Source of the DNA: Microcaldota archaeon
GTDB lineage: Archaea; Micrarchaeota; Micrarchaeia; CABMEP01
DNA: 40,381 nucleotides
Reading direction: 5' to 3'
Assembly (NCBI GenBank): GCA_026413625.1
Contig: JAOAKO010000006.1
Location: 1-40,381, forward strand
The translations under genes were made by a program, and so were the position numbers. Within the stretch, counting starts at the first letter, position 1; every line of letters begins with the position of its first letter. The notes below the pieces were generated by a model, which did not search any database, had not been told where the DNA came from, and worked only from the letters and a program-made list of their open reading frames with translations. This document shows, piece after piece, positions 2,529-9,295 of this stretch.

Positions 2529-3260
2529 TTAGAATCTTGATCTTCTTTGCTGAAATTGCCTTCTGCCCTGAAATCCAAATCCTAATCTCTGCGCCCTTCT
2601 TCCCGCAAATTTTCTTCTCGGAATCCTATCGTTTCTTTGGAATTTTGACCTCGGCTCTGAAGTAAATTCTGCAGACTCGACGTATTCAAACTTTCCATAA
2701 TTTTCTGCAATGTGCCTCTCTTCTTTTTGGTTGCATTGGCTGCAAACGAGAGTCCTTCCCTTTAGAACCATCGGTTTTCTGTCATAGCTGCAATAAGCCA
2801 TTACAACGCCCATTCCCTTCGGTTTCAAAGATACGACAACTCTTAGAGGAGTTATTTCCTTGACTGCGCCGATTACAATATCTCCCACTCTCAGCTCATC
2901 CCTTATCGACTTGACATAACCTTCTTTTATCTCTGATACTGGAATCACTGCGGACATCCTATCCACTCTTTCAGTATCTGCAGAATTCGGATGCTCGATG
3001 GTAAGAAAAGCGACAGACTCAAACATTTCTTCCACTCTGCCATAAACAACATCGCCGGATTTTAGCTTTTCAGGCTGCCTATCTGACACTACAGAAATCA
3101 TCCTTTGTTCATCGATTATCACGATACCTGCATTCATTGCGCGTATATTGCCTTCTTTGTCTGTATACGTGCCGCTTCCAGGCATGAACTCTTCCTCTGT
3201 TCCTAGGATTTCACCAGGAACAGCGATATGGGCACCATTGTTCTTCTCCATATAAACCAA
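2529..3260 (-). CDS. csl4: Exosome RNA-binding subunit Csl4 with a basic Arg/Gln/Phe-rich C-terminal extension
   Basis: PGEILGTEEEFMPGSGTYTDKEGNIRAMNAG (Csl4 N-domain), S1 domain, degenerate zinc ribbon (CSYD...CSQC), then a ~45-aa tail ending GFGFQGRRQFQQRRSRF. Confidence 0.9.
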   Translation of the reverse strand: MVYMEKNNGAHIAVPGEILGTEEEFMPGSGTYTDKEGNIRAMNAGIVIIDEQRMISVVSDRQPEKLKSGDVVYGRVEEMFESVAFLTIEHPNSADTERVDRMSAVIPVSEIKEGYVKSIRDELRVGDIVIGAVKEITPLRVVVSLKPKGMGVVMAYCSYDRKPMVLKGRTLVCSQCNQKEERHIAENYGKFEYVESAEFTSEPRSKFQRNDRIPRRKFAGRRAQRLGFGFQGRRQFQQRRSRF

Positions 3261-3358
3261 CTTATAGAAATCAGAAATCTATTTTATTAATATACAATAA
3301 TAGAATTTATAAATATTTAATAACATTAATTCATAAAAGAAGCGGCAATGGTGCGTGC

Positions 3359-4585
3359 ATGGCAAAGGAAAACATACTTGTCTTATGTATAGACAGAGAT
3401 GACGATTTGGGAAAAAAGGCCGGGGTTACTGGCCCGGTAATCGGAAGGCAGGCAAATATCCAGGCCGCGACAAATCTTCTGCTAAAAGATCCAGAAGACA
3501 CAGATGCGAATGCAATGTTTCAGGCGGTTAAAATTTACGATGAAGTAATAAAATCAAAAAAGGCAGAAGTGGTTACAATTACTGGAGACAGCAGATTGGG
3601 ATACCATGCAGACAAAAAGATAGTGACGCAACTTGAATCGATACTCCAACAGTTTCATGCCACCTCGTGCATCTTTGTAACAGATGGAGCTGACGATGAA
3701 GAGCTCCTTCCTCTAATCTCATCAAGAATTAAATTGGATTCCAAAAAAACTGTCGTAATGAAACAGGCAAAGGAGCTTGAAAAAACTTATGTCACTCTAT
3801 TAAGCAAATTAAAAGAACCGTATTATGCAAAGCTTTTCTTCGGAATTCCTGCGCTTATACTTATATCTTTTCTCATAAGCGACATGCTAGGATACGGATG
3901 GAGACCGATAGTTGGAATTGTCGGAATGTATCTGCTTCTGAAGGGTTTTGGCATAGAAGATTTTCTGATTAATACTGTAAGAAACCTTCTCTCGCCTTCC
4001 ACCAGAACTGCGCTAGTAGTGTATGTGCCGATCATTGCCCTTGCGCTGATATCCATTTCCATAGGGGTCAGCGAATTTGTAAACGCCGCTTCAAACGGCT
4101 ATAGCTTTTTCGAATCGCTCTCGTTTGGAATAAGGCCTATATTGTGGCCGTTTGCTGTATTCATCATAATTCTCATAATCATAGGAAGAGCCATCGAACT
4201 TTATCCAAAAGGAAGCTGGTTTGAACTTATCGACACCGGGCTTTCGTCTGTCAATGGAATAATAGTTTCATTGCTTGCGTATCTTGCACTTTCATGGGTT
4301 GTTGGCGAAGCTTGGTTCTATGAATTTCTGATCGCCATGTTCGTATCCATAATTCTTACATTGATAGCGACGGAATTTGCAAGAAGCCTGAAAATTAGGG
4401 TTGCCGCAAAGATAAGACTTGAAGGAAAGGAAATAATAACTGACATCGGAGCTTACATCGGGAAGATCATCGGAATCGACAAAAGAGCCGGCACTGCAAT
4501 CGCCCAAACTCCAATAGGAACGAAAATACCGATCAAACTTGAAAGAATAAGCAGCGTTGGAGAAAGGGTCATTGTAAAACAATAA
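3359..4585 (+). CDS. DUF373 family membrane protein
   Basis: N-terminus ILVLCIDRDDDLGKKAGVTGPVIGRQANIQAATNLLLKDPEDTDANAMFQAVKIYDE is the DUF373 signature; C-terminal TM segments. Confidence 0.9.
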   Translation: MAKENILVLCIDRDDDLGKKAGVTGPVIGRQANIQAATNLLLKDPEDTDANAMFQAVKIYDEVIKSKKAEVVTITGDSRLGYHADKKIVTQLESILQQFHATSCIFVTDGADDEELLPLISSRIKLDSKKTVVMKQAKELEKTYVTLLSKLKEPYYAKLFFGIPALILISFLISDMLGYGWRPIVGIVGMYLLLKGFGIEDFLINTVRNLLSPSTRTALVVYVPIIALALISISIGVSEFVNAASNGYSFFESLSFGIRPILWPFAVFIIILIIIGRAIELYPKGSWFELIDTGLSSVNGIIVSLLAYLALSWVVGEAWFYEFLIAMFVSIILTLIATEFARSLKIRVAAKIRLEGKEIITDIGAYIGKIIGIDKRAGTAIAQTPIGTKIPIKLERISSVGERVIVKQ

Positions 4586-4607
4586 ACAGATTTTATAGCT
4601 GATTATT

Positions 4608-7205
4608 ATGGCGGAGAAAAACAATGAAAAAAAAGAAATCCGCAATAGGATTGACGAACCGAAAAATCTGCCTATAGGATTGACCGGTTCAGAAGCCGAA
4701 GAAAGAATGAAGCAGTATGGAAAGAATGTAATCTACCAATATATGAAAACAAGCGAATTTGAATTGTTCGCTTCCCAATTTAGCATCCCTATTGTTGTGC
4801 TTATTTTGGCGGCTCTGTTCCTTGCAACCGTTAACCTAATGCAGGGATTGGTTGTAATTTTAATAATCATGATCACAATAGTGACGAACTGGCTAAGGAA
4901 CAGGGAAAGCGAGGAAAAAATAATCCGAAATATGAAAGAATTCTACGGCCAAGTTAAGGCGTATAGGGATGGAAAAATAGTCAAACTCAGCATAGAGGAG
5001 ATCGTGCCTGGAGATATGCTCATACTTGAAAAGGGCATGTTGGTCCCTGCTGACGGAATAGTAATAAAGGCAAAGGAATGCAAAGTTGATGAAAATATAT
5101 TTCAAAGAGGAATAGTTGAAAAAGTTCCGGAAATGGAAGTGGAAAAAACATTCAAGCCTTACAAATCCGACCCCTCTTCCCTTTATGCAGGAACGTTCAT
5201 TAAGGAAGGCGAGTGTACAATGAGAGTTACAGGAACGGGAAAGAGCACCAAATATTATATCTCTTTTGGAGCCAAAAGCATTCTTTCCATGGATCCAAGA
5301 AAAAACGATTCAATAAGCAGGGTAAAAAAAGCAACCGACTCGTTCGGAGGTGTTGTTTATTTGGCATCCGTCGTGATACTCCTTCAATTAGTTGCCGATG
5401 GAATGCCCATCTTTAATGCAATAGTCATTGCTGCGGCCGCGGCAGTTGCTGCCATACCCGATACCATTTCCAGCGTCGCATCCTACATCTATTCTTCAAC
5501 AATAGAAAGAATGTCGAAATTCGCAGTAATAAGGAGAGACGCGATTGCGGATAAGATTGGGCGAACCAGCATTCTAGTTACTGAAATGTTCAGATCTCTA
5601 ACCAGAAATGAACCTACCGTAAGAAACCTCTGGATTGACCGAAAAGAAATAACCGTGACCGGAGACGGATGGGATGTTTTGGGCGTCTTCAAAGGAACAA
5701 AAAACTACGCATCTATCGATATGATGACGGAAATGGTTGCGGCCGCGACTGAAGCCACTTTTGTATACAACAATGATACTATGTATTTGGAAGGCGATCC
5801 CATTGAAGGCGCTTTGGTTACAATGGCAATGAAAAATAGAATTCCGATTAACAACATAAGGGGAGAATGGATACTCGTTGAAAAAAGGTACGAAAACGGA
5901 ATAACAATTTCAAAAATAAGAAAGAAAAATAGAATCGCGTATGTAATGTTTGGGCCGTCAGAACAGATAAAAGAAAAATGCAAGTCGCTGTATTCAAACG
6001 GAAAATTCTTGAAAATAGATGAAAAGATCAATTTGGAAATAGAAATGCAGGAAGTCAAAATGGCGGCGAACGGGCAGAAAACGTACGCTATTGCATTTGC
6101 ATGGAAGCGAAACGAACCCAAATACTTTACTTTTCTCGCATTAGCTGGCATATACGATCCTCCGAAGCCGGAAGTGAAGCGCGCAATAAGCGAACTTAAA
6201 AACGCAGGCATTAAGCCAATAATAATAACATCTGCAAAAAGCGGCGAGGCTGTCAGCTTTGCAAAGGAGATAGGGATAATGGGTGAAACTGACAAGGCTG
6301 TGATTTGCGAAGAACTTAAGTACCTAAGGCCTGAAGAGAGAACAAAAAGAATCCTCGGATCAACGGTATTTTCGGAGTCAACAGGGGAATACGAAGCCAT
6401 GATATTGGATGTGTTCAAAAAAGAGGGCCACCACGTTACATATATGGAATCGATTGGAACAGATTACGCTCCTTTCATGTATACTAATGTATCTCTTGCG
6501 GTGGAAAGCGCGCCGGACATAATAAAAAACAATTCTGACGCAATAATTAGAAACGATAGATACGAATCAACAATCGACCTTATCGAAGAGTCCCGGGATA
6601 TGCGAAGAAATATCGAAAGAAGCTTTTATGCGCTTTCCGCATCAGACATGTCAATATTCTTCATAATCATGATAAGCGCTATTCTTTTCACCGGAGACAT
6701 GATGACAGCAACGCAAATACTTCTTATTAACCTTATAGCGGACGTCGCGATTGCTACAAACTTCTCAAGGGAAAAATTATATGAAAAGTCGCTTGGGACT
6801 AAAACGTCAAAAAGATTCCCTGAAACCGGAGAATACGTCGCAATGTTGATGATTGCACTCTCAGTGTCGGTTTACTTTGGCGTTCTTACGCTGTTGCCAA
6901 TTTTTGATGGATATAATAAGACAGTTGCGATCGCGACATTGTCTGTTGCAATATTGGCGATCATGGTAAATTCCATATCTATAAAAGATAACCTGTTAGA
7001 GTCTCTCAGGCATGTTTCCGCAGACACGATCCTTGCAATCTGCCTGACATTTGCAATACTTTTTGCCGCATTTTATTTGCCTTTTGTTTCCTCTTTATTC
7101 GAGCTTAAGCCTTTGAGCCTCATGCAATGGCTTTACATCGCGCCCGTAGCGATAATAATTACGCTTGTTTCCGAAATCAAAAAAATCCTCCTTAGGAAAA
7201 AGTGA
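4608..7205 (+). CDS. P2-type (cation) P-type ATPase homologue lacking catalytic motifs: predicted pseudo-ATPase
   Basis: 865-aa full-length ORF with P2 ATPase architecture (GLTGSEAEERMKQYGKN; VPGDMLILEKGMLVPADGIVIKA; VAAIPDTIS; EGDPIEGALV; GIYDPPKPEVKRAISELKNAGIKPIIIT). DKTGT is replaced by EMFRS, TGES by QRGI, TGD by TSA and GDGVND by SIGTDY. Confidence 0.88.
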   Translation: MAEKNNEKKEIRNRIDEPKNLPIGLTGSEAEERMKQYGKNVIYQYMKTSEFELFASQFSIPIVVLILAALFLATVNLMQGLVVILIIMITIVTNWLRNRESEEKIIRNMKEFYGQVKAYRDGKIVKLSIEEIVPGDMLILEKGMLVPADGIVIKAKECKVDENIFQRGIVEKVPEMEVEKTFKPYKSDPSSLYAGTFIKEGECTMRVTGTGKSTKYYISFGAKSILSMDPRKNDSISRVKKATDSFGGVVYLASVVILLQLVADGMPIFNAIVIAAAAAVAAIPDTISSVASYIYSSTIERMSKFAVIRRDAIADKIGRTSILVTEMFRSLTRNEPTVRNLWIDRKEITVTGDGWDVLGVFKGTKNYASIDMMTEMVAAATEATFVYNNDTMYLEGDPIEGALVTMAMKNRIPINNIRGEWILVEKRYENGITISKIRKKNRIAYVMFGPSEQIKEKCKSLYSNGKFLKIDEKINLEIEMQEVKMAANGQKTYAIAFAWKRNEPKYFTFLALAGIYDPPKPEVKRAISELKNAGIKPIIITSAKSGEAVSFAKEIGIMGETDKAVICEELKYLRPEERTKRILGSTVFSESTGEYEAMILDVFKKEGHHVTYMESIGTDYAPFMYTNVSLAVESAPDIIKNNSDAIIRNDRYESTIDLIEESRDMRRNIERSFYALSASDMSIFFIIMISAILFTGDMMTATQILLINLIADVAIATNFSREKLYEKSLGTKTSKRFPETGEYVAMLMIALSVSVYFGVLTLLPIFDGYNKTVAIATLSVAILAIMVNSISIKDNLLESLRHVSADTILAICLTFAILFAAFYLPFVSSLFELKPLSLMQWLYIAPVAIIITLVSEIKKILLRKK

Positions 7206-7211
7206 CTTTGT

Positions 7212-7592
7212 ATGGATGAAAAAATTGCGACCTGGGACACAAATGCTGCAATTTATGCGGTACAGAAAAGGTTAGATATACTTTCAGAAATACAAGAAGC
7301 TTTAGTAGGAACAAAATTCACAGTGACGCTTCCTTCCGGAATAAAATCGGAGCTTGAAAAGATAATTAGATCCGAAAAATCCAGCATCGAGGAAAAGAAC
7401 AATGCAAACATCGCATTGGAAATGATCAAAAAATGGCACAGAGACGGCAAACTAAAAATCGAAAAGGCGGAACCTCCTTTGGACAGATGGTTCATCAAAA
7501 AAGCGAAGCTATCCGGTATGGCGATTGTGACCTATGATAAAAAGCTTAGGGGCCGCTTAAAAAAGCTAGGAGCCAAGATAATAATGCTTTGA
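7212..7592 (+). CDS. PIN-domain protein (archaeal FCF1/VapC9-like)
   Basis: WDTNAAIY near the N-terminus, central acidic residues, ...MAIVTYDKKLRGRLKKLGAKIIML near the C-terminus. Adjacent to rpoE', a common archaeal neighbourhood. Confidence 0.82.
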   Translation: MDEKIATWDTNAAIYAVQKRLDILSEIQEALVGTKFTVTLPSGIKSELEKIIRSEKSSIEEKNNANIALEMIKKWHRDGKLKIEKAEPPLDRWFIKKAKLSGMAIVTYDKKLRGRLKKLGAKIIML

Positions 7593-7681
7593 CGCTTAAA
7601 TCAATACCCTTTAAAATTTTCTCAATTAATATATATTTGTCGTTTATCAGCTATTTTAATATTTGAAAGAGGTTTGATTAT

Positions 7682-8287
7682 ATGTATAAAGTGCTAACAG
7701 TTTCTGATACAATAAGAGTTCCCCCTTCCTACTTTGCAATGGAACTAAATTCGTCAATACTGCGAATACTCCAAGACAGATATGAAAGAAAAGTGGATCT
7801 TGAAAATGGGGTTGTCTTAAAAATATGGAACATACACGATATCAAGGGGGGGAGAGTTGTGCTTGGAGATGGAGCTGCTTATTACGATGTCAAATACAAT
7901 GTGCTTACATATATACCTGAAACGCACGAAGTACTTAATGGCGAAGTCACGGAAGTAATGGACTTTGGAGTGTTCATAAACATAGGGCCGTTTGACGGCC
8001 TTGTGCACCTGTCTCAGATCGCGAATGACTTCATCACATTCGACAAGAAGTCTGGAAACCTTCTTTTGAAAGGAAGCAAGCATACTGTCAAAAAAGGAGA
8101 CGTAGTAAGGGCAAAAATTGTATCTGTAAGCATGAAGCCGACTATCCCAGAAACAAAGATTGCAATGACGATGAAAGGTGACGGTCTTGGCAACATATCT
8201 TGGCTGTACGAAGAGGAAAAGCCTAAGAAAACGAAAAAAGAAAAAGAGGAAAAAACCGCGAAGGAAGCGAAAGCTAAGAAAAAATGA
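7682..8287 (+). CDS. rpoE1: DNA-directed RNA polymerase subunit E' (Rpb7-like), Lys/Glu-rich tail
   Basis: MYKVLTVSDTIRVPPSYF... and S1 domain GEVTEVMDFGVFINIGPFDGLVHLSQI. Confidence 0.96.
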   Translation: MYKVLTVSDTIRVPPSYFAMELNSSILRILQDRYERKVDLENGVVLKIWNIHDIKGGRVVLGDGAAYYDVKYNVLTYIPETHEVLNGEVTEVMDFGVFINIGPFDGLVHLSQIANDFITFDKKSGNLLLKGSKHTVKKGDVVRAKIVSVSMKPTIPETKIAMTMKGDGLGNISWLYEEEKPKKTKKEKEEKTAKEAKAKKK

Positions 8288-8512: not shown

Positions 8513-9295
8513 ATGGACATTATAATCGATCCTAATAAAGACATATACGGCAATGCAAACACTTATTTTGAAAATTCAAAAAAATTAAGAAAAAAACTAG
8601 AAGACACCAAGGCAGCGATAGAAAAGACTAAGAGGGAAATAAAGCAAGAGGAAGAGACAATTAAAAAAGAAAAGGTAGAGATAGACAAAGGCGCAAAGAG
8701 CGAAAAAAAGGAATGGTATTGCCAATACCACTGGTTCTTTACTACGGATGGATTTTTGGCGATCGGAGGAAAGAGCGCAGGGCAGAACGAAGAAATTGTA
8801 AAGCGACACTTGGAGCATAAGGATCTTTTTTTCCATGCAGATATTGTCGGCGCCCCTGCAGTTGTGCTAAAAAATGGATTAGGTGCTCCCGATAGCTCAA
8901 TCGAGCAGGCTGCGCAATTCGCTGCGTGTTATTCTTCCGCATGGAAAACAGGCTACAGTTCGGTTGACGTTTATTATGTTACTAAAGAGCAAGTAAGCAA
9001 ATCTCCTCCGTCTGGAGAGTATTTGCAAAAAGGAAGTTTCTTCATATCTGGAAGAAAAAATTACATAAGGGGAGTTGCGTTAAAATTGTTGATAGGTGTA
9101 AACGAGGAAAGAAAGCTGTTGTGCTTGCCTGAGAAGGCGGGCATAGAAAAATTCAAGAACTGTTTTGTTATAGAGCCCGGAAGGTATTCAAAGGAGTTAG
9201 TCGCGGAAAAAATTTCCAAGCAGCTTGGAGTTAAAAAAGACGAAATTCTACCTCTTATTCCTACGGGCAACTCGTCATTCTCAAGATTAAAATAA
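8513..9295 (+). CDS. Stand-alone coiled coil plus NFACT-R (DUF814) protein, RqcH/Rqc2-related
   Basis: IIIDPNKDIYGNANTYFENSKKLRKKLEDTKAAIEK (NFACT middle/coiled coil) then WYCQYHWFFTTDGFLAIGGKSAGQNEEIVKRHLEHKDLFFHADIVGAPAVVLKNG (NFACT-R). No NFACT-N domain. Confidence 0.88.
   Translation: MDIIIDPNKDIYGNANTYFENSKKLRKKLEDTKAAIEKTKREIKQEEETIKKEKVEIDKGAKSEKKEWYCQYHWFFTTDGFLAIGGKSAGQNEEIVKRHLEHKDLFFHADIVGAPAVVLKNGLGAPDSSIEQAAQFAACYSSAWKTGYSSVDVYYVTKEQVSKSPPSGEYLQKGSFFISGRKNYIRGVALKLLIGVNEERKLLCLPEKAGIEKFKNCFVIEPGRYSKELVAEKISKQLGVKKDEILPLIPTGNSSFSRLK

Follow-up and report, generated by a model that had tools for sequence, protein, structure and literature searches.

P-type ATPases are defined by an aspartate that becomes phosphorylated. 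The window (the whole stretch of DNA analysed, 40,381 nucleotides) holds a gene for a protein that resembles such a pump over nearly its entire length and has Glu at the position of this residue. Is this gene a damaged copy of a pump, a product of faulty assembly, or a pseudo-ATPase that has been retained for another task?

4608..7205, + strand: P2A-type Ca2+-ATPase homologue without catalytic residues (pseudo-ATPase), 865 aa; assigned from the open reading frame, Pfam, the alignment with LMCA1, the motif comparison and AlphaFold2

Homology and predicted structure

The gene consists of a single unbroken open reading frame. Pfam searches with the 865-residue protein recovered the A-domain family and the C-terminal and N-terminal families of cation ATPases (PF00122, 9e-24; PF00689, 3e-15; PF00690, 1.5e-8), all above the gathering cut-off, and the hydrolase (P-domain) family was slightly under its cut-off (25.1 versus 26.4 bits). 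The SERCA-type model of NCBIfam, for which the cut-off is 703 bits, scored only 216. The closest relative in the PDB was the Listeria Ca2+-ATPase LMCA1 (E=3e-58), with an alignment that covers residues 23–863; this alignment and the Pfam matches bear out the preliminary description of the product as a full-length P2 ATPase homologue with an intact frame. The AlphaFold2 model, based on 12 sequences, had a pLDDT of 80.7 and a pTM of 0.74 and showed the complete P-type arrangement. Foldseek gave strong matches of this model to SPCA1 and SERCA, E1 states reaching TM-scores as high as 0.80; the E1-like state is weak evidence and may be borrowed, because the AlphaFold2 alignment contained canonical pumps. 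The A, P and N domains and ten helices are thus present according to Pfam, the full-length LMCA1 alignment, AlphaFold2 and Foldseek. Judged from its sequence, the product is derived from a P2 pump and is most like the P2A (SERCA/SPCA/LMCA-type) Ca2+-ATPases.

Residues lost and residues kept

A search of 60 related genomes yielded two orthologues, in Candidatus Micrarchaeum sp. SulCav_AS07-7 and in the uncultured archaeon LFW-242_1, at identities of 59% (same genus) and 44% (same family). The three Micrarchaeales proteins were compared with 44 canonical homologues, in which 109 columns have one residue in at least 93% of the sequences. The positions of the catalytic motifs are as follows.

5103..5114, + strand: TGES equivalent (A domain), residues 166–169, QRGI; RGEV and GRGI in the two relatives
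5583..5597, + strand: DKTGT equivalent, residues 326–330, EMFRS; phosphorylation Asp replaced by Glu in all three Micrarchaeales proteins
5892..5894, + strand: nucleotide-stacking Phe column, residue 429, Glu; Phe in 43/44 canonical homologues, Asp in both relatives
5949..5957, + strand: KGA equivalent (nucleotide domain), residues 448–450, FGP in all three proteins
6228..6236, + strand: TGD equivalent, residues 541–543, TSA; TTE and THE in the two relatives
6393..6395, + strand: P-domain Lys column, residue 596, Glu in all three proteins; Lys in 44/44 canonical homologues
6447..6464, + strand: GDGVND equivalent, residues 614–619, ESIGTD; last Asp alone retained

The five columns of DKTGT are identical in 44/44 canonical homologues, and all five are replaced in the product; the three proteins read EMFRS, EILKS and EQVSA and do not meet the motif. 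The alignment with relatives and canonical homologues agrees with the earlier claim that the phosphorylated Asp has become Glu in a disrupted motif; the stretch equivalent to DKTGTLTxNEMTV (EMFRSLTRNEPTV) had been placed at 5583–5601, and its correct span is 5583–5621. The dephosphorylation motif TGES is degraded in all three proteins and the nucleotide contacts Phe (429), Lys of KGA (448) and Arg (491) are replaced in all three, so that neither the motif nor the set of contacts is satisfied. The same holds for the P-domain Lys together with the GDGxND loop, in which Ser replaces the first Asp (Mg2+ site) in all three proteins. Five substitutions are fixed in the three proteins (E326, E596, E614, S615 and D680), and near-invariant columns were lost in both the P2 domain (24 of 42 outright) and P1 (7 of 12). 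Neither DKTGT nor GDGxND is restored in the two orthologues, and the strings DKTG, GDGxND, TGES, KGAP and ITGD are absent from all six frames. CopA of the same window retains DKTGT, as had been pointed out.

All replacements listed in the preliminary description (VDENIFQRGI, PDTIS, IITSAKSGEA, FGPSE and SIGTDYAPFM) are real in the alignments. The statement that every catalytic motif is replaced goes a little too far, since ITGD retains its Thr (T541) and GDGVND its second Asp (D619). PEGLP had been counted as catalytic in error; it is an ion-binding motif whose acidic residue is still present (D285 here and Glu in the two relatives). The positions in the membrane are the following.

5457..5462, + strand: M4 proline and acid (PEGLP position), P284-D285; P-E in both relatives; putative cation site
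6645..6647, + strand: M5 cation-site Asn column, D680; Asn in 43/44 canonical homologues, Asp in all three proteins
6729..6743, + strand: M6 cation-site Asn and Asp, N708-D712, kept in all three proteins

The combination of the M4 Pro and acid (P-D/E) with N708 and D712 in M6 satisfies the requirement for a cation site at the level of residues only, as there are no binding data. As far as the alignments can tell, the membrane cation-site residues are retained or made more acidic, and they are under visible constraint. As SERCA counterparts of the sites discussed we take Asp351, Lys684, Asp703, Asp707, Phe487 (presumably residue 429), Lys515 and Arg560 and, further, Glu309, Asn768, Asn796 and Asp800.

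Distribution and constraint

The remaining matches in the 60-genome search were at most 30% identical, and the other loci that were aligned (27/27) were canonical. Canonical P2 pumps are also encoded elsewhere in each of the three genomes. A profile search of 301 genomes of the class gave no members beyond the three Micrarchaeales genomes; in the class and phylum searches, each of 301 genomes, members had E≤1e-100 and canonical pumps reached ∼1e-96 at best. A wider family was therefore rejected, since these class and phylum searches yield three members only. The three carriers are every Micrarchaeales genome among the 301 searched, and ARMAN-2 and Mia14 were not included. A GTDB-wide scan of 85,462 species with two short peptide patterns matched only the same two relatives, and would miss divergent relatives without the two peptides. 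We regard the pseudo-ATPase as vertically inherited in the order Micrarchaeales. In another genome of the class, a homologue with one internal TAA (G006:C11:520-3144) was observed, which is possibly a true pseudogene.

In a quick-mode tree the three pseudo-ATPases form a clade (SH-aLRT support 100%) whose stem measures 5.21 changes per site. The long stem leaves the canonical P2 subgroup of origin unresolved, and the tree does not settle where the clade branches among canonical pumps. The tips measure 0.29–0.62 in the pseudo-ATPase clade versus 0.20–0.54 in the trio of canonical paralogues from the same genomes, and path lengths within the clade are ∼1.5 times those of the intact paralogue. 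The pN/pS values were 0.31, 0.43 and 0.48 for the pseudo-ATPases versus 0.24, 0.36 and 0.38 for the paralogue; no formal dN/dS is given, because dS was saturated in most pairs. Within the clade, the identity of the N domain equals that of the paralogue trio, and the P and A domains are looser; in the two closest genomes every domain of the pseudo-ATPase is 48–67% identical. A long stem with later constraint fits a release from catalysis that was followed by a different constraint. A further P2-type ATPase of the source genome (G000:C8:50345-52816), with DKTGT intact, also has a branch that is very long, at 3.3 changes per site.

The losses are identical in three independently assembled genomes, and no frameshifts or stops were found in the two orthologues. 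Relaxed selection was checked by pN/pS only, and nonsynonymous change is well under synonymous change. Relatives without DKTGT and GDGxND, unbroken frames and pN/pS thus support the earlier reading of the protein as a pseudoenzyme, and we consider it very probable that 4608–7205 encodes a selected P-type pseudo-ATPase. That the protein can neither form a phosphoenzyme nor pump is inferred, without biochemistry, and so is the non-pumping role proposed earlier, be it sensor, scaffold or channel.

The DUF373 neighbour and possible functions

In 3/3 genomes the pseudo-ATPase gene is immediately preceded, on the same strand, by a gene for a DUF373 membrane protein; the LFW-242_1 contig contains just the 3' part of the latter.

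3359..4585, + strand: DUF373 membrane protein gene, 22 bases upstream of the pseudo-ATPase gene; pair in all three Micrarchaeales genomes

DUF373 is present in 59/60 genomes of the class, and adjacency of DUF373 and a P-type ATPase was not found outside Micrarchaeales when positions in the 60 class genomes were compared by eye. The link to DUF373 rests on a single conserved adjacency within a single order. DUF373 has no PDB relative by sequence, and its AlphaFold2 model from three sequences (pLDDT 46) is unusable. DUF373 correlates with ammonia monooxygenase in the membrane complexome of Nitrososphaera viennensis (PMC10030591), and a search of the functional literature on DUF373 gave nothing beyond this one correlation. 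We tentatively infer that the pseudo-ATPase acts as a DUF373-coupled cation sensor or regulator. It would be an ATP-independent, cation-responsive membrane subunit in which cation occupancy of the retained M4/M5/M6 site would shift the arrangement of the cytosolic head; a partner, for which the DUF373 membrane protein is the most probable candidate, would sense this arrangement. The protein may then represent a family of P-type pseudo-ATPases that would be the first conserved one in prokaryotes, with a former pump serving as an ATP-independent cation-sensing subunit that controls DUF373; this, too, is a suggestion rather than a likelihood. A clade without the Asp and its surrounding machinery, but with ion-site residues, offers a clean test of ATP-free reuse of the scaffold, and the pair with the pseudo-ATPase is the first functional lead for DUF373.

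The protein resembles LMCA1 (lmo0841) and SPCA1 in full-length homology, in the A, P and N domains with ten helices, in the P-E/D of M4 and in the Asn and Asp of M6; unlike in these pumps, the residues for phosphoryl transfer and dephosphorylation and the nucleotide contacts that were checked are replaced. With human TMEM94/ERMA it shares a P-type-like fold, the absence of TGES and a replaced GDGVND (GSSANL in TMEM94). The human protein, which is eukaryotic and not archaeal, retains the Asp (DKQGI), whereas in the archaeal protein, with the loop ESIGTD, the Asp is gone and the test for TMEM94-family motifs is not met. The archaeal protein goes beyond TMEM94/ERMA, because the Asp itself is lost. 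TMEM94 was absent among the 60 profile and 50 fold matches listed for the pseudo-ATPase, and it is therefore an analogue and not a demonstrated close relative. In a survey of P-type ATPases, 22 of 9,634 sequences were without an intact DKTGT (99.77% retain it), and each of these exceptions, 5 from eukaryotes and 17 from bacteria, had a single point change, some of them possibly sequencing errors (PMC3896382); here the whole machinery is lost, in an archaeal clade. Our search of the literature on pseudoenzymes and inactive P-type ATPases found no paper describing this archaeal protein.

A DUF373-coupled, cation-responsive subunit competes mainly with two other roles, that of a scaffold and that of a passive channel. 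A lipid-binding or membrane-protein scaffold without an ion role, as proposed for TMEM94, has in its favour that this nearest analogue, in one study, bound a phosphatidic-acid-like lipid, and no Mg2+, and was without ATPase activity (PMC12134183). TMEM94 did bind AMPPCP, at micromolar affinity (PMC12134183), and the loss of motifs alone is thus no proof that ATP binding elsewhere is lost. The visible constraint on the cation-site residues of the pseudo-ATPase makes a scaffold of this kind unlikely. If, on the other hand, the ATP cycle is gone and ions run down their gradient via the acidic M4/M5/M6 site, the protein would be a passive cation channel or facilitator, and the ion path is indeed its best-kept functional feature (M4 acid, M5 Asp, M6 Asn and Asp invariant or conservative in 3/3). 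We give this only a slight chance, as an unregulated leak would cost the cell, and a head that still has its A, P and N domains, the N domain being as constrained as that of the pump, exceeds the needs of a bare channel.

If the protein were still an ATP-driven pump whose chemistry has been rebuilt, for instance around E326 or D619 at an unusual site, it would follow what is claimed for ERMA, for which ATP-dependent Mg2+ uptake, abolished by D427N, was reported despite altered motifs (PMC13322241); whether TMEM94/ERMA is an ER Mg2+-ATPase is in open dispute. The fixed acids E326, E596 and E614 and the retained D619 and T541 do form a conserved new constellation. ERMA, however, retains the Asp where the archaeal protein has Glu, and the joint loss of the P-domain Lys, the first Asp of the Mg2+ site, TGES, KGA and the Phe and Arg nucleotide contacts leaves a rebuilt pump highly improbable. 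A decaying pseudogene or an assembly artefact, which the lost motifs and the long stem might suggest, is rejected, as is a frameshift or sequencing error: the frames are open in three assemblies that share the fixed changes, pN/pS is far below 1, the domains of the two closest genomes are conserved as given above, and canonical motifs occur in no other frame.

A promoter and terminator scan of 3100–7800 with a bacterial model gave sites no more numerous than in shuffles. The wider gene order is shared by the Micrarchaeum relative (Csl4, DUF373, pseudo-ATPase, PIN/Rpb7, NFACT-R, LonB). Positions 8513–9295 of the window encode a stand-alone NFACT-R domain protein of 260 aa, with a match to the NFACT N-terminal region that is short and below the cut-off. 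PIN and Rpb7 are inverted in the Micrarchaeum relative (L036:10870-11957 versus 7212–8287 of the window), with the breakpoint just past the pseudo-ATPase gene.
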